The notes under the pieces are model-generated. The model was not told where the DNA came from. It made no database searches and saw nothing but the letters and a program-made list of their open reading frames with translations. 64,000 nt of DNA from Natrinema versiforme JCM 10478 (GTDB lineage Archaea > Halobacteriota > Halobacteria > Halobacteriales > Natrialbaceae), in contig NZ_AOID01000047.1 of assembly GCF_000337195.1 (NCBI RefSeq), forward strand, positions 29,303-93,302. The letters are read 5' to 3'. Each line of letters begins with the position of its first letter. Position 1 is the stretch's first letter. The position numbers and the translations under genes were made by a program. Shown here in pieces: positions 1,358 to 31,812 of the stretch.

Positions 1358-1622
1358 GTGCGCCACTTCGGATTCGGACGGCAAAGTAGTACCGAGGTCC
1401 GTCTCCGAAGCGCTCGCTGCTCCGAACGTGTGCACCTCGAGGAATCGTCACGGACCGCGAGAAAAGCGACGCAATCACATCAAGTCCAGTACAGCGTCAC
1501 ACCATCGAACGCACGGAACTGCACTGGGTGTCGGCCGCGAGCCGAGACGGCCCCGGCCGACCGTGACGCCCGGTCGGACCGAGCGTCGATTCGCCGACGA
1601 ATGGTTGCCAGTGGCCTCGAGC

Positions 1623-3296
1623 TTAGACGGCGTCGGGACCGGTCTTGCCGGTGCGGATCTGCGTCGCGCCCTCGACGGGCATGACGAAGATCTTGCCGTC
1701 GCCGGGTTCGCCGGTTTCCGCGCCCTCGCGGATGGCGTCGACGACCTCTTGGGCCGGGATGTCGGCGACGACGCACTCGATTTTGACCTTCTGGTGGAGG
1801 TCGACCGTGTACTCCTCACCGCGCCACTGGCCCTTCTTTGCGGGCTGGGAGCCGCGGCCGGAGACGTTGGTAACCGTCAGCGACGGTGCGCCGGCTTCGG
1901 CCAGTGACTGCTTGATATCGCCGAGTCGGTCGGGGCGAACGATTGCGGTGACCATCTTGATCTGGCCGTCGTTCGGCTCGCCACCATCGGCGCGGATGAT
2001 TTCGTCGCCACCGTCGGTGGCGATGTCGGGTTCGCCGAATTCGGGGTAGGTGTCGACGCCGTGTTCGGAGACGTCGAGCCCGTCGCGTTCGTGTTCGGGC
2101 GAGACGCGGGCCTGTCCCATGGCCTTCAGCCCGCCGAAGACTGCCGCGGTTGCGACGACCGTCCAGACGGTGATTGCCACGACGCCAGCGAGTTGTGCGA
2201 TGAACGCATTGGCGACGCTATCGACCATGCCCGGAGCGGCAACGAACGGGAACAGCAGCGTCCCGAGGACGCCCGCGGAGCCGTGGACGGGGAAGACCGC
2301 ACAGACGTCGTCGATCTTGAGTCGCTGTTCGACGAAACCGAAGACGAGCGGCAGTTGTGCGCCGGCCAGCAGACCGACGACCATGGCACCCCACCACGCC
2401 GCGACGTCGGGAATCGCCGTGATGCCGACGAGCCCGGCCAGCAGGCCGTTTGCGACGTAGAGCGTGTCGACTTTGCCGGTTTTCAGGAGGGCGACTGCGC
2501 CGGAGCCGATGGCACCCATCGCCATCGCTAGCGTCGTCGTCAGCACGACGCGGCCGAGGACGGCCCCGTTGAACACCATGTCTCCGGCGCTGTTCTCGAC
2601 GAAGATTCCCGCCGTCCCGACGTTGAACCCGTACCAGCCGAAGGCGAGGAGGAGGGTTCCCAGCACGGCGAACGTCATCGAGTGACCGGGAATGACGTTG
2701 ACGCTGCCGTCACTGTTGTATCGGTCCATACGCGGACCGAGCACCCAGGCTGCGGTGAGACCGGCGATACCGCCCATACCGTGGACGATCATCCCGCCGG
2801 CGAAGTCCTGAAAGCCGGTTCCGAGGTATTCACCGATGTACGCACCGGACCACGTAATTCCAGTGACGACCGGGTAGATGACCGCCGCTAGCAGGACGGT
2901 GTACGCTACGTACGCGCGGAGTTTCGCGCGTCCGGCGACCGCACCGGAGACGATCGTCGCCGCCGTCATTGCGAAGACGGCCCCGTAAAACCAGCCGCTG
3001 GCCCAGGAGCTGGGATCGTTACCGGCGACCCAGTTGAAGCCGCCTCCGCCGACGAGGCTGCTTACACCGGCTCCGACGAGGAAGAACGCGACGACCCCGA
3101 CCGACCAGGTCAGCAGATTCTTCGTCAGCTGGTTGGCGACGTTCTTCGATCGAACCTGACCGGCCTCCAGCATCGCGAAGCCCGCGTGCATGAAGAAGAT
3201 CAGGAAACACACCACCAGGATCCACGTGTAATTGAGTGCATTGACGAGGACGCCAACGTCGGCGACCTCTCCGGACTGCAGAAGCGTCGGATCCAT
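1623..3296 (-). CDS. amt: Ammonium transporter fused to a C-terminal P-II (GlnK) domain
   Basis: A 557-residue fusion. Residues 1 to about 410 are an Amt/Mep channel with about 11 membrane helices, the signature around [19 protein letters not shown] and the usual tail [15 protein letters not shown]. After an acidic linker, residues 446-557 form a full-length P-II domain that can be numbered directly on GlnK. The T-loop has RGEEY with Tyr51, the B-loop is [10 protein letters not shown], and the C-loop is IRTG. GlnK normally plugs AmtB in trans, so the fusion puts channel and gate in one chain. The start at 3296 has GGAGAGGTGA just upstream and overlaps the stop of a 26-codon leader ORF. Confidence 0.95.
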
Positions 3297-3376
3297 CAGA
3301 CGTTCACCTCTCCGTTCCACGCAGCGCTGCATTCAGCGACCAAACGATCGTCCCCTTCCAGTGCAATTCCGTTCAT
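3296..3376 (-). CDS. 26-residue leader mini-ORF upstream of amt-PII
   Basis: An ORF of 26 codons (begins MNGIALEG, ends NGEVNV) with a strong GGAGG site at 3383-3387, six bases before its ATG. Its TGA shares one base with the amt ATG (TGATG), the classic geometry of translational coupling. A TATA-like TTAAAT lies about 45 nt upstream of the ATG, so the ORF would sit in the 5' leader of the amt mRNA. I know of no homologue. It may be a regulatory leader peptide or simply a ribosome-loading device. The evidence is the Shine-Dalgarno site and the overlap, not conservation. Confidence 0.55.
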
Positions 3377-3417
3377 GTTTGTCCTCCAAATCACGTTCGA
3401 GTCAGTTGTACTTGTTT

Positions 3418-3428
3418 CATTTAAGGGT
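3418..3428 (-). promoter_or_regulatory. Probable promoter (TATA) of the leader-ORF/amt transcript
   Basis: Reading the minus strand, CCCTTAAATGA is the best TATA-like element upstream of amt. It predicts a start of transcription near 3397, about 10 nt before the GGAGG site of the mini-ORF and 100 nt before amt. A P-II-linked gene should respond to nitrogen, but no clear inverted-repeat operator is visible. Confidence 0.4.
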
Positions 3429-3792
3429 TAGCGTTGACAGATCTGCAAAATAACGGGCGTAATAGGGTAATCCGTCCAAAGCTAAATCAGATCTAATGTG
3501 TATAAGGGTATTGAAAATCACGTCTTTTTCGAGCGACGGTTATATTCTACCCGTTTGTCAACCAGTGGTGAGCGGTCAAACCGTTCACAATCGGGATGAT
3601 TACCGGTAGATTGCCGCTCGAGCGGGGCGTATCGGTGCCTCTCCGCTCGCGCGCGGCAGATATTGCCACCCCGGTTTGCGAGCCGGACTCGAGATTGACA
3701 TTCGTCTAATCGCCGATCCTGTGTGGTGGAGAATGGTCGCTTCCCGAGCGTACGAGTCCGACCGAACCCGGCGACGGAAGACGCGCTCGTCC
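3429..3792. other. Non-coding stretch between amt and hemB
   Basis: Fairly AT-rich up to about 3540, then GC-rich. Open frames here lack acidic composition and ribosome sites, and I regard them as noise. The AT-rich part may hold upstream control of amt. I see no convincing palindrome, tRNA or repeat. Confidence 0.5.
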
Positions 3793-4806
3793 CTACAGCC
3801 GTTGTGCGACGTCCTCGGCGAAGTACGTCAGAATCAGATCCGCACCGGCCCGCTTGATCGACAGCAGCGACTCGAGGCCGACCGCCTCGAGATCGAGCCA
3901 CCCCTTCTCGGCGGCGGCGTGGAGCATGGCGTACTCGCCGGAGACGTTGTAGGCGGCGACGGGGTGGTCGAACTCCCGGCGGACGGCGCTGATAATGTCC
4001 AGATACGGCAGTGCGGGTTTGACCATCATCACGTCCGCACCCTGCTCGGCATCGAGTCGGACCTCTCGCATGGCTTCCCGCGAGTTCGCGGGGTCCATCT
4101 GGTAGTGCCGCCGGTTACCGAACGAGGGCGCGCCGTCGGCGGCGTCCCGGAAGGGGCCGTAGAACGCGCTCTCGTACTTGGCCGCGTAGCTCATGATCGG
4201 GACGTGCTCGAACCCCGCCCCGTCCAGCGCCTCGCGGATGACCTCGACCATGCCGTCCATCATCCCGCTCGGGGCCACCATGTCCGCGCCCGCACGAGCG
4301 TGGGACGTGACGATCCGCTTGAGGGCCTCGAGCGTCGCGTCGTTATCGACGGTCATCGTCGGTTCGCAAGCGGGGCCGTCCGCGTCGACGATGTCCTCGC
4401 TCCGTAACTCCTCCTCGAGCGGGCCGCAGTGCCCGTGGTCGGTGTACTCACAGAGACAGACGTCGGTGATGACGTAGGCGTCGGTCTCGCTCGTAATTCG
4501 GCGCAGCGCCTCCTGAATGACGCCGTCGTCGGCCCACGCGCGGCTTCCCTCGGGGTCTTTCGACGCAGGAATCCCGAACAGCATGATCGCCTCGACGCCG
4601 GTCTCGAGGACTTCCTCGACCCGACCGACGATCCCGTCGATCGGCACGCGGTCGTGGCCGGGCATCGACTCGATCGGCCGGCGTTCGTCGGTCGTCGCGT
4701 CGACGAAGACGGGTGCGATCAGGTCGGCGGGCTCGAGGCTCGTCTCGCTGACGAGGCCGCGAACGCGGTCCTGTCGGAGCCGTCGGGGGCGGTGAGTGAG
4801 ATCCAT
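3793..4806 (-). CDS. hemB: Porphobilinogen synthase (delta-aminolevulinate dehydratase)
   Basis: Condenses two 5-aminolevulinates to porphobilinogen, the step after HemL. The protein has 337 residues, a normal length. The zinc-dependent type is indicated by Cys117, Cys119 and Cys127 in [14 protein letters not shown]. Lys210 ([14 protein letters not shown]) and Lys263 ([11 protein letters not shown]) are the catalytic lysines, the latter forming the Schiff base. The start at 4806 ([11 protein letters not shown]) matches the family N-terminus. Upstream in-frame codons reaching 5280 are not protein-like. Together with hemL it covers two early heme/siroheme/cobalamin steps in this window. Confidence 0.96.
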
Positions 4807-5018
4807 AGCCGTGTATTCGACGGGAGTCGCAAAAGCGATGCGCTCGATGCCCCGCGGGTCGCGGCCGACCTGGCGGCGCGCTGTCAGTGCGTGGTGTCCC
4901 GCCGACGCTCGGCGATCTCCTGTCCCATCGAACTGCGATCCAGCACCGCCTGCCGAGAACAATACCCTCATCCGTCGGAATCGATGAACCACGAGTGATT
5001 GCCGCTTTCCGACGCGTG

Positions 5019-5054
5019 ATGATTGTGATGACAGGACTCCTCGAGGTCGACTGA
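5019..5054 (+). CDS. 11-residue mini-ORF overlapping the MFS transporter start
   Basis: ATGATTGTG opens an 11-codon frame whose TGA (5052-5054) shares a base with the ATG of the transporter (TGATG). The transporter's own ribosome site GAGG lies inside the mini-ORF. No good TATA box is visible about 25 nt upstream, so expression is uncertain. It is listed because the same overlap recurs before amt, the siroheme reductase and the siderophore operon. Confidence 0.3.
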
Positions 5055-6226
5055 TGCGCTGGCGATACAAGGAAACCGTCCTCGCGATGTGTACGCTCGC
5101 CTTCCTGGCGACGATGGCCGGCCGGCTGGTGATCAGCCCGGTGGTGCCACGGATCACCGCGGAGTTCGGCATCTCGAACTCGGTGATCGGCCTCGCGCTG
5201 ACGGGAATGTGGATGGCGTACTTCTGCTCGCAGTTTCCCAGCGGCGTCTTCGCGGACAAGTACGGCGAGCGGCGGATCATTCTGGTCGCCGTCGGCGGGA
5301 CGGCCGTCGCGAGCGCCTTCCTCGCGGTCGCGCCGCTGTTTCCGGTCTTCGTCGTCGGGACTGTCGCGCTCGGGGCCGTCGCGGGCCTCCACTACAGCGT
5401 CGCGACGTCACTGCTGACCCGTACCTATGACGAGATCGGGGTCGCGATCGGCGTCCACAACAGCGGCGGCCCGATTGCGGGGCTCATTGCGCCGCCGGTC
5501 GCCGCGTGGGTCGCAGTTCGGTACGGCTGGCGCGCCGCGATCGCGGTCGGCACCGTCGTCGCCGTGCCGATCTTCGTCCTGTTCGCCCGCTCGGTGCGGC
5601 CGACCGAACCCCAGCGGCCCGACCAACCGATGGCCTCGCGCTTCGAACTCGCGCCGCTCGTCGAACTGCTCTCCCGGCCGAAGATCGCCTTCACCTGCGT
5701 CCTCGCGATTCTGGGCGACTTCGTCTGGCAGGCGACCTCCTCGTTCCTGCCGACCTTCCTCGTCGCCTATCGCGGCCAGTCCGCGACGACGGCGAGTCTC
5801 GTCTTCGGCGGCTACTTCGTCGTCCAAGGGATCACGCAGGTCGGCGTGGGCGCGGCCTCCGACCGGTACGGCCGGGAGAGTTCCACGGCGGCCTGTATGG
5901 CGCTCTCGGTCGCCGGCTTCCTCCTGTACATCGCCGTTCCGGGAATCGTCTCCGTCGTCGCGGGGACCGTCCTCCTCGGGATCGGCCTCGGCTGGGGTGC
6001 GGCACTCTTGCCCCGGTTCATGGACGAACTCTCCGCGGCCGAGCGCAGCGCGGGGTTCGGACTCGTTCGGACCGTCTACGGCTTCGTCGGCGCGCTGGGG
6101 TCGGTGGTGACCGGTACGCTGGCGGATCTGTTCGGCTGGGGCGTCTCCTTTGGCTTTCTCGCCGCGTTACTCGCCGTCGTCTTCGCCGCACTGGCGGTCA
6201 ACTGGGCGTTCTCGCTCGGCTACTAA
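5054..6226 (+). CDS. MFS transporter, 12 membrane helices
   Basis: A 390-residue major facilitator superfamily permease. The motif A region [11 protein letters not shown] follows helix 2, and a related [11 protein letters not shown] loop lies in the second half, giving the usual 6+6 arrangement. There are few soluble insertions. The substrate cannot be told from sequence, and the neighbours (hemB, a zinc ribbon, a TrmB regulator) do not point to one. The start at 5054 is preceded by GAGG at a suitable distance. Confidence 0.85.
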
Positions 6227-15922: not shown

Positions 15923-16378
15923 CTATCGCTCGAGTTCTCGTTTCGCCTGCCGAATCTCGTCGTACTTCTCATCCGCGCCGTCGACGCGAGCGAGGCCCTC
16001 CGCGGCCTCGAGGGTGCGGACGCCGTTATCGAGGAAGGAGAGCACGTCGCCCGAATAGGCATACACCATGTAGTCGTCGGTCATCACGTCGACGATCGCG
16101 TCCGGCCCGAGCCCCTGTGCGCGTAGTTCGAGCAGATACTTGATGAACTTCCGCTCCGGGCAGCCACAGTAGGGATTGTTGTCACACCCGCAGTCGAGGA
16201 AATCCTGCGTGAAATCGAGCACCCGATCGCGGGTCGCGTCGTCGAGTTTCTCGAGGCCGTCACCCTGGAAGAGCATGTCGAGCGTCGCGCCCTTGAACGC
16301 TCCCCTGGGGATATTCGTCTCGAGCTGGGAGCTGAGCTGCCGGTGGTTCTTGATGTAGATCTTGTCGGTGATAGCCAC
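15923..16378 (-). CDS. Conserved haloarchaeal Cys-cluster protein (DUF5814-like)
   Basis: 151 residues with a GTG start. KIYIKNHRQLSSQLETNIPRG begins the protein, and the core CGCDNNPYCGCPERKF has four close cysteines that probably bind a metal or Fe-S cluster. From memory, similar sequence occurs as a terminal domain of some haloarchaeal DEAD/DEAH helicases (DUF5814). It converges on the XPD-type helicase gene with 20 bp between stops. The function is unknown. Confidence 0.72.
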   Translation of the reverse strand: MAITDKIYIKNHRQLSSQLETNIPRGAFKGATLDMLFQGDGLEKLDDATRDRVLDFTQDFLDCGCDNNPYCGCPERKFIKYLLELRAQGLGPDAIVDVMTDDYMVYAYSGDVLSFLDNGVRTLEAAEGLARVDGADEKYDEIRQAKRELER

Positions 16379-16557: not shown

Positions 16558-16630
16558 GTCCGGGTTGGGGTAGTGGTTATCCTTCAGCCTTGTGGAGGCT
16601 GAGACGCGGGTTCGATTCTCGCACCCGGAC
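16558..16630 (+). tRNA. tRNA-His (GTG) with encoded G-1
   Basis: A full cloverleaf: acceptor TCCGGGT/ACCCGGA, anticodon stem CAGCC/GGCTG with loop TTGTGGA (anticodon GTG), and T arm GCGGG-TTCGATT-CTCGC. G at 16558 pairs with C73 at 16630, the G-1:C73 identity pair of tRNA-His. No CCA is encoded. The 3' 22 nt are repeated twice just downstream. Confidence 0.97.
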
Positions 16631-16671
16631 TTTGTCGCCGCGAACAAATCCGTGAGCGGCGCAAATCCTCA

Positions 16672-16684
16672 GAGAATCGAACCC
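16672..16684 (-). repeat. Inverted copy of the tRNA-His T arm
   Basis: GAGAATCGAACCC is the exact reverse complement of 16608-16620 inside tRNA-His. It can pair with the downstream direct copy (to 16743) to form an imperfect hairpin with CCTCTCCC/GGGAGAGG arms. Confidence 0.75.
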
Positions 16685-16731
16685 TGGGAGAGGCAGCCCG
16701 CGCAACGGAGTGAGCAGGAACCTCTCCCTTC

Positions 16732-16753
16732 GGTTCGGTTCTCGCACCCGGGC
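16732..16753 (+). repeat. First downstream copy of the tRNA-His 3' end (att-like)
   Basis: Matches tRNA-His 16609-16630 at 20 of 22 positions. It includes the T loop and the whole acceptor 3' strand ending CACCCGGGC. It lies 123 nt from the tRNA copy. Confidence 0.8.
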
Positions 16754-16841
16754 TTTTTCACGACGTCCATCGGGCAGAGTGGCAAAGCTGGACGGCGAGA
16801 TCGAACCAGACGAGTCGCGCGCAGCGGGCACGTCTCGGCGT

Positions 16842-16863
16842 GGTTCGGTTCTCGCACCCGGAC
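16842..16863 (+). repeat. Second downstream copy of the tRNA-His 3' end (att-like)
   Basis: Matches tRNA-His 16609-16630 at 21 of 22 positions, 110 nt after the first copy. It is preceded by an inverted partial copy (CGAACCA at 16803, CGTCT/AGACG arms), so the hairpin-plus-copy unit occurs twice. No integrase gene is nearby. Confidence 0.8.
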
Positions 16864-16934: not shown

Positions 16935-17288
16935 ATGACTCGCGGATTGGAGCCCACGGAGGAGTACGACGGCTCCATCGTCGTTCGGCTGTTAGACGAC
17001 CAGAGCGGAACCGAGCGGGTTCGCTGTCCATCGTACGAGGACGCGATCGCCGTCGTCAAGGAACACCACCGCTCGGTCACGGTCGCGAAGATCGTCGACC
17101 GGGACGGCGAGGTCGTCTTTACCTCCGCCGGGATGGATATCGACGACTGGGCGACGGAGTGGGAGCACGCGAAACGTCGCCTCTCCGTCGACGTCGAGGA
17201 GTACGACTGCCCGTACGACAACATCGCCTGTGTCGCCGACGACCACTGCATCCAGTGTCAGATCGACGCGGTACAGGAACAGTACTGA
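16935..17288 (+). CDS. Conserved haloarchaeal protein of unknown function
   Basis: 117 acidic residues. The N-terminal half is an alternating strand/helix pattern (SIVVRLLDDQSGTERV...VAKIVDRDGEVVFTSAG). The C-terminus has CPYDNIACVADDHCIQCQID with four Cys, likely a metal site. I do not recognise a named family with certainty. The start at 16935 is supported by the TATA box; the upstream frame overlaps the tRNA-derived repeats. Confidence 0.72.
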   Translation: MTRGLEPTEEYDGSIVVRLLDDQSGTERVRCPSYEDAIAVVKEHHRSVTVAKIVDRDGEVVFTSAGMDIDDWATEWEHAKRRLSVDVEEYDCPYDNIACVADDHCIQCQIDAVQEQY

Positions 17289-31500: not shown

Positions 31501-31812
31501 ATGAGCGAACTCGAGCCCGGCGAGTTGTTGCCGAGCGATCGAATGCAGAGTCAGGTCGTCGACGGGGAGGTCACACAGATCCACCGCGGCCACCAGTACG
31601 CCGAGGAAGGCGATACGTTCGCGATCGACGGGACGATCTTCGAAGTGACCGACATCCGCGAGCGCACGCTCGGGGATCTGACCGACGAGGACGCACGGGC
31701 CGAAGGGATGGAGAATTTGGAGGCTTACGAGCGACTGCTTGAGCGCGCCCACGAGGACTTCGAGTGGGACGACGACAGCGAGGTCATGTTACACCGGTTC
31801 GAGCAGCGATAA
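31501..31812 (+). CDS. ASCH-domain protein
   Basis: 103 residues with the ASCH fold pattern: LLPSDRMQSQVVDGEVTQIHRGHQYAEEGDTFAIDG, then a long helix ending YERLLERAHEDFEWDDDSEVMLHRFE. ASCH domains resemble PUA and are thought to bind RNA, and some act as N4-acetylcytidine amidohydrolases. The gene lies on the opposite strand, inside an otherwise conserved ribosome/secretion gene cluster. The ATG at 31501 begins the homologous part. Confidence 0.78.
   Translation: MSELEPGELLPSDRMQSQVVDGEVTQIHRGHQYAEEGDTFAIDGTIFEVTDIRERTLGDLTDEDARAEGMENLEAYERLLERAHEDFEWDDDSEVMLHRFEQR

Follow-up and report, generated by a model that had tools for sequence, protein, structure and literature searches.

Two short units follow the tRNA-His gene

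The window, that is, the whole stretch of 64,000 nucleotides analysed here, contains a tRNA-His(gtg) gene followed by two short units, each of which closes with a copy of the 3' part of the tRNA, T-loop through discriminator (Table 1). A sequence-only reading of the window had reported that the last 22 nt of the tRNA recur twice, that each recurrence is preceded by an inverted partial copy able to pair with it and that two units of about 110-120 nt result. Re-alignment confirmed both copies, which score 20/22 and 21/22 in register with tRNA bases 16609-16630. The inverted copy of unit 1 pairs with the T-arm of the tRNA (16608-16620) at 13/13 positions and that of unit 2 pairs with one bulged base, while the spacings of the tRNA 3'-end copies, 123 and 110 nt, equal the lengths of units 1 and 2. 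The order within a unit is a small hairpin, the inverted T-arm copy, a variable hairpin tip and the copy of tRNA positions ~53 to 73. No integrase is annotated or was found between the tRNA and its copies at this locus, the units (~110-125 bp) being too small for one.

Table 1. Features of the tRNA-His locus, in window coordinates.
Feature	Position	Strand	Basis
Upstream neighbour gene, 151 aa, outside element	15923-16378	-	Anchor and host tree
tRNA-His(gtg), insertion target	16558-16631	+	ARAGORN; Rfam tRNA, 53.1 bits
Unit 1 hairpin 1, directly 3' of tRNA-His	16632-16664	+	Fold
Unit 1 inverted T-arm copy (5' arm of hairpin 2)	16672-16684	+	Complementarity
Unit 1 variable hairpin tip	16685-16731	+	Fold, locus comparison
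Unit 1 copy of tRNA 3' end	16732-16753	+	20/22
Unit 2 hairpin 1 region, decayed	16754-16794	+	Directly 3' of tRNA in sister species
Unit 2 inverted T-arm copy, one base missing	16795-16807	+	Complementarity, one-base bulge
Unit 2 variable hairpin tip	16808-16841	+	Fold, locus comparison
Unit 2 copy of tRNA 3' end	16842-16863	+	21/22
Downstream neighbour gene, 117 aa, outside element	16935-17288	+	Anchor

The predicted fold of unit 1 is better than that of all 200 dinucleotide shuffles (z -4.05); that of the decayed unit 2 is not outstanding (z -0.71, 43/200 shuffles equally good). The hairpin 1 stretch of unit 1 is also present in loci L032, L033 and L040, and a stretch 93% similar to it lies directly 3' of tRNA-Leu(taa) in the window genome. 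Both flanking genes serve as anchors, the 151-aa gene adjoining tRNA-His in 30/30 loci and the 117-aa gene lying within 15 kb 3' of it in 19 of 35 loci (the window counted). In the 4.19-Mb genome (72 contigs) a 20-nt tRNA-His end pattern with up to 3 mismatches has six matches (reversed-pattern control 0): the two window copies, three tRNA-His or tRNA-His-like genes, and C29:170345-170364 (L024), a solitary tRNA-His-like 3' end that differs at 2 positions and has no called tRNA within 1.5 kb of it. The tRNA-His-like genes at C41:61827-61900 (L097) and C48:153220-153291 (L098) are 91% and 86% identical to the tRNA-His of the window, and one or two such diverged copies are common among relatives. 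Searched with blastn, the locus gave three distant matches in plasmids (H1-H3), which lie over the tRNA (three haloarchaeal plasmids carry a tRNA-His-like gene), and one weak match in phages, to a tRNA-Gly.

Units lie behind about a third of tRNA genes in three genomes

Three genomes were analysed in depth: the window genome (G000), one of the same genus (G021) and one of another family (G060). We searched for the last 20 nt of each tRNA, with up to 4 mismatches, in its flank within 400 nt. A copy of the tRNA's own 3' end lies downstream of 18/46, 16/45 and 12/34 tRNA calls, respectively, against 2, 1 and 0 in the upstream control. Among the tRNAs counted by ARAGORN are some tandem genes and a small number of doubtful intron calls; one of the 18 copies in G000 is the neighbouring tRNA-Gly gene, one of the 16 in G021 is the neighbouring tRNA-Asp, and the 34 calls in G060 come from 31 loci, out of 42 Rfam matches. 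Thus about a third of the tRNA genes in these haloarchaeal genomes bear units. Many occurrences of the unit at loci unrelated to tRNA-His would have counted against the sequence-only reading; in the letter they exist, with units at roughly one-third of the tRNA genes examined, yet each unit carries the 3' end of its own tRNA. The elements measure roughly 80-180 bp, mostly 100-150. Aligned copies span the start of the T-loop to the discriminator or 1-2 bases beyond, their flanks being unmatched, and the sequence between tRNA and copy comprises a variable hairpin tip preceded by an inverted T-arm stretch and, next to the tRNA, a small hairpin. At tRNA-His itself, at least one copy lies within the 1.5-kb flank at 25 of 30 loci with an identical tRNA-His; 40 tRNA-His loci were fetched, six of which (L134-L139) were left out of one comparison, the head pattern having missed them.

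An independent pattern that combines part of one tip class with one inverted and one direct T-loop, and that uses no knowledge of tRNA genes, matches in 64/391 genomes and 30/86 genera of the class (reversed control 0). Across 84,980 species it found 48 stretches, every one with a haloarchaeal title (only Halobacteria), and 46 of the 51 distinct matches in this set lie less than 400 nt behind a tRNA gene. The L325 match has a copy that agrees with a tRNA 1742 nt away, behind which it lies, and L327 (Gly(gcc)) and L328 (Arg(ccg)) have displaced copies identical to a tRNA tail of the same organism; L312 has no tRNA in 7.2 kb and the L344 match is at a contig edge. When the 12 bases outside the pattern were compared with the hit's own tRNA, 60 of 69 pooled hits had at most 2 mismatches, against a mean of 6.1 and a maximum of 13 hits for permuted tRNA pairings; the pool joins two collections with organisms in common, and its hits are therefore not fully independent. 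In one hit set an intron-bearing tRNA-Arg(tct), missed by ARAGORN without -i, was found by eye; among the other hits of that set 25 of 30 match their own tail with at most 2 mismatches, the exceptions (L206, L211, L213, L222 and L224) having at least 3. Two hairpin patterns had no match in IMG/VR viral contigs. The conclusion that the units of the window belong to a wider family of mobile hairpin units at haloarchaeal tRNA 3' ends is strongly supported.

The tip motif GCGAACGVAGTGAGC (reversed control 0) also occurs in the window genome in hairpins without an adjoining tRNA T-loop copy, at C9:1041, C9:1337, C22:148470, C28:4914, C33:11543 and C51:158466. The hairpin style is therefore wider than the tRNA units.

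Extra units adjoin the tRNA

Relatives differ at the tRNA-His locus by precise extra units. The sister genome G015 (tree support 99/94) has a single unit, orthologous to unit 2 of the window. Compared with it, the window carries precisely one more unit, of 123 bp, which lies between the tRNA and unit 2 and beyond which 540 nt align at 92.6%. Likewise, G028 compared with G021 gives 102 bp extra followed by 796 nt at 88%, and G017 compared with G002 a 57-bp remnant followed by 850 nt at 84%. Insertions at tRNA-His between relatives, which the sequence-only reading had anticipated, are thus found, and the possibility that none ever appears here is refuted. Among the 595 pairs of 35 tRNA-His loci, the extra unit adjoins the tRNA in 33 alignments, which share genomes and are not 33 independent events, and lies further out in none. 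Between G000 and G021 the extra unit also adjoins the tRNA at tRNA-Gly(tcc), Ser(gga) and Glu(ttc), and at Gly(gcc) and Asp, where it is tangled with tandem tRNA genes.

The presence of units at orthologous tRNAs is patchy. The class of the tRNA-proximal tRNA-His unit, assigned by eye, needs 17 changes on a 30-genome tree, compared with a shuffled mean of 18.1 and a value as low in 65/200 shuffles, and rapid turnover has therefore left hardly any phylogenetic signal. Any single presence or absence could be a loss between the 21-nt direct repeats, a process documented in a haloarchaeon (PMC3119063). However, the differing arrays among close relatives together with the one-sided position of the extra unit argue for gains as well as losses, and there is good support for insertion at the tRNA 3' end.

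The tRNA-sense strand appears selected to fold

In 63 units folded with their copies, GA faces GA in 116 of 140 two-by-two internal loops (4.1 in dinucleotide shuffles), and in 86 of these both sides read pyrimidine-GA-purine. C(GNA)G triloops make up 50 of the 143 hairpin loops (1.4 in shuffles), whereas GNRA tetraloops number 1 in the 63 units compared with 6.5 in shuffles. With DNA energy parameters the raw counts fall to 31 GA/GA loops and 16 C(GNA)G triloops. When the copy was left out of the folding, the tRNA-sense strand was the more stable strand in 52/63 units. Moreover, tips of equal length (24 sequences) show two-sided changes, for example CG in 11 and GC in 11 at one pair, and AT in 13 and GC in 11 at another. 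The loop enrichment, the strand stability and the two-sided changes together indicate that the tRNA-sense strand is selected to fold.

In favour of a functional RNA under host selection, either a tRNA-like 3' trailer or a processing signal, are the conserved fold of the tRNA-sense strand with its two-sided changes and the copies, which stop at or just past the discriminator. We nonetheless consider such an RNA quite improbable. The patchy presence at orthologous tRNAs and the near-absence of phylogenetic signal in the tRNA-His unit class speak against host selection, GNRA tetraloops are rare and GNA triloops common, and an Rfam scan of the 64-kb window at gathering score matched the tRNA itself and none of the units. 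Tandem GA in DNA has a sequence preference. Triloops of the kind enriched here are termed ultra-stable in DNA (PMC11101458). The GA/GA mismatches and C(GNA)G triloops fit folded single-stranded DNA and, although the energy models do not decide the matter, we lean towards it rather than RNA as the folded form.

Relations among units and the source of the copy

The nearest relative of a unit is one at the same tRNA type in another species in 72/118 cases, to which six further tRNA-His rows are added, and descent therefore explains part of the pattern; in some pairs, tips of 50-60 nt are 90-100% identical across tRNA types. The copy is strictly tied to its own tRNA. The 5' arm beyond the T-loop is weakly tied to it, with 5.04 of 8 pairs formed compared with 4.06 for permuted tRNAs (largest of 200 permutations, 4.35). 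Such a contrast is consistent with hairpin 1, arm and tip being the part that moves and the copy being derived from the target. It is possible that the copy comes instead from an attP supplying the matching tRNA end, which would give the same ~21-nt repeat as is present at the tRNA 3' end.

Genes lie between copies at a few loci. In L116 a reading frame that by eye resembles a metallo-beta-lactamase lies 204-1154 nt behind tRNA-His, between two unit-type copies, and the unit at +1154 may thus be a gene-bearing one. In L327 (Halostagnicola sp. A56; reversed locus, 1419-5060) a 1213-aa frame, by eye like a UvrD-type helicase, lies just before two unit-type tRNA-Gly copies, a position which would fit the entry of a larger island between the tRNA and its units. 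We rejected the idea that gene cassettes are the rule, since other elements inserted later would equally account for the genes between copies in L101, L115, L116 and L117 and for the displaced hairpins of L325, L327 and L328.

Canonical integrated elements and candidate enzymes

Archaeal integrases usually take the 3' end of a tRNA gene as attB (PMC8371274), and tRNA-His is among the known targets: GI 3, an island of 52 kb in Haloquadratum walsbyi, is bounded by a direct repeat of 43 nt from the 3' end of this gene (PMC3119063). GI 3 thus shares its target and its host class with the units and differs from them in its size, its genes, its phage integrase and the length of its repeat. SNJ2-type elements (Pleolipoviridae and plasmids) resemble the units in the same way, occupying tRNA 3' ends in the same host class and duplicating part of them, but are kilobases in size, carry an integrase and have marked att sites of 13-15 bp in three records.

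The units might be scars, att sites left behind when ordinary integrative viruses or plasmids, such as those of the SNJ2 type, lost their genes. One locus speaks for such scars. A ~15-kb element at tRNA-Arg(tcg) on contig C13 of G000 has at its far end an SNJ2-type integrase (374 aa; PF02899 match, PF00589 below the cut-off; 42.7% to SNJ2), beside which the far att copy (L276:9700-9806, near 31786) is split exactly at the T-loop by a ~72-nt hairpin in the style of the units. This is a single case, with a tip that lacks duplication and 5' arm, and the unit model leaves it unexplained; the search of viral contigs for relatives of the integrase yielded no confirmed one. However, the unit hairpin lies behind int in 0/11 SNJ2-type virus or plasmid sequences. 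Furthermore, the canonical elements of G021, of 13.3 kb at tRNA-Thr(ggt) and 6 kb at tRNA-Gly(tcc), have longer att copies, which reach the anticodon arm, and deletion would not yield one compact size and build at many tRNA types. We therefore regard scars as unlikely. The sequence-only reading had offered nested att remnants of lost elements or a tRNA-derived hairpin family. The units are indeed insertion products at the tRNA 3' end and do form a hairpin family, but since free SNJ2-type genomes lack the hairpin and canonical att copies are longer, they are unlikely to be what ordinary integrated viruses left behind. Separately, the flank behind tRNA-Met(cat) in L057 (G000) and L168 (G021) resembles by eye the sequence behind the attP core of SNJ2 (L290), as if left by an SNJ2-like element.

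The units could also be moved by a Y1 (IS200/605-like) transposase or by a Cas1-like casposase. REP and other IS200/605-derived palindromes are small imperfect hairpins that have spread as non-autonomous elements, and the succession of arm, hairpin and target in the units resembles the right end of IS200/605. The units differ from such palindromes in being bound to tRNA 3' ends and in their ~21-nt repeat; IS200/605 is not known to make a duplication, yet the tRNA 3' end lies on both sides here. A Cas1-like casposase would account for a target duplication. Casposons insert at the very 3' end of archaeal tRNA genes, leave direct repeats of 14-15 bp and accept single-stranded ends, but are large, encode Cas1 and have terminal inverted repeats (PMC6977970). 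Y1_Tnp matches number 3 in G000 and 0 in both G021 and G060, which have units, and Cas1 (PF01867) is absent from all three genomes. The enzyme need not be resident today; even so, we find movement by either enzyme very improbable. PF00589 matches, as a general family count that is not specific to IntI, number 11, 9 and 11. Because Cas1 is lacking in three genomes and Y1 in two and PF00589 is present in all three, we prefer a tyrosine recombinase acting in trans. This is the likeliest enzyme class and a candidate only.

Discussion

The explanation that we favour, and think probable, is that the units are gene-less, non-autonomous mobile elements with a specific insertion site, the 3' end of haloarchaeal tRNA genes. 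On this view the tRNA would stay intact at every insertion, and a second copy of its 3' end, from T-loop to discriminator, would close the element on its far side. Older units would thereby be moved outward from the tRNA, giving rise to short arrays. We infer that the folded hairpin, more probably in the form of single-stranded DNA than of RNA, would be recognized by a recombinase supplied in trans and joined to the T-loop and acceptor part of the tRNA gene. Folded integron attC sites and the hairpin attP of phage CTX are used in a comparable way.

The integron attC site is a folded, sequence-poor hairpin with an extra base and a variable tip, and a new cassette enters beside a fixed site. The units, whose tRNA-sense strand has a conserved single-strand fold, may be likened to it in these features, and differ from integron cassettes in that the fixed site is a tRNA gene and no gene is carried. 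Integrons of archaea are the subject of PMC9668308. We entertain, as a tentative and rather doubtful extension, that haloarchaeal tRNA genes are the fixed landing sites of an integron-like system, in which gene-less cassettes would enter with polarity behind the tRNA through a recombinase acting in trans and would occasionally carry or displace genes; a folded single-stranded DNA hairpin would then be the recombination site, its 5' arm paired with the T-arm.

Our literature search, which covered titles and abstract openings, found no description of tRNA-3'-end hairpin units, and this family of haloarchaeal mini-elements is apparently undescribed. tRNA 3' ends are among the principal sites at which mobile DNA enters archaeal genomes. 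If ~100-bp hairpin elements behind about a third of the tRNA genes in the genomes examined form a family that spans the class, they would account for many odd sequences behind haloarchaeal tRNA genes. Annotation is affected too, because the copies resemble broken att sites. The unit arrays would give a readable, ordered record of insertions, and the units would point to a recombinase that possibly uses folded single-stranded DNA.
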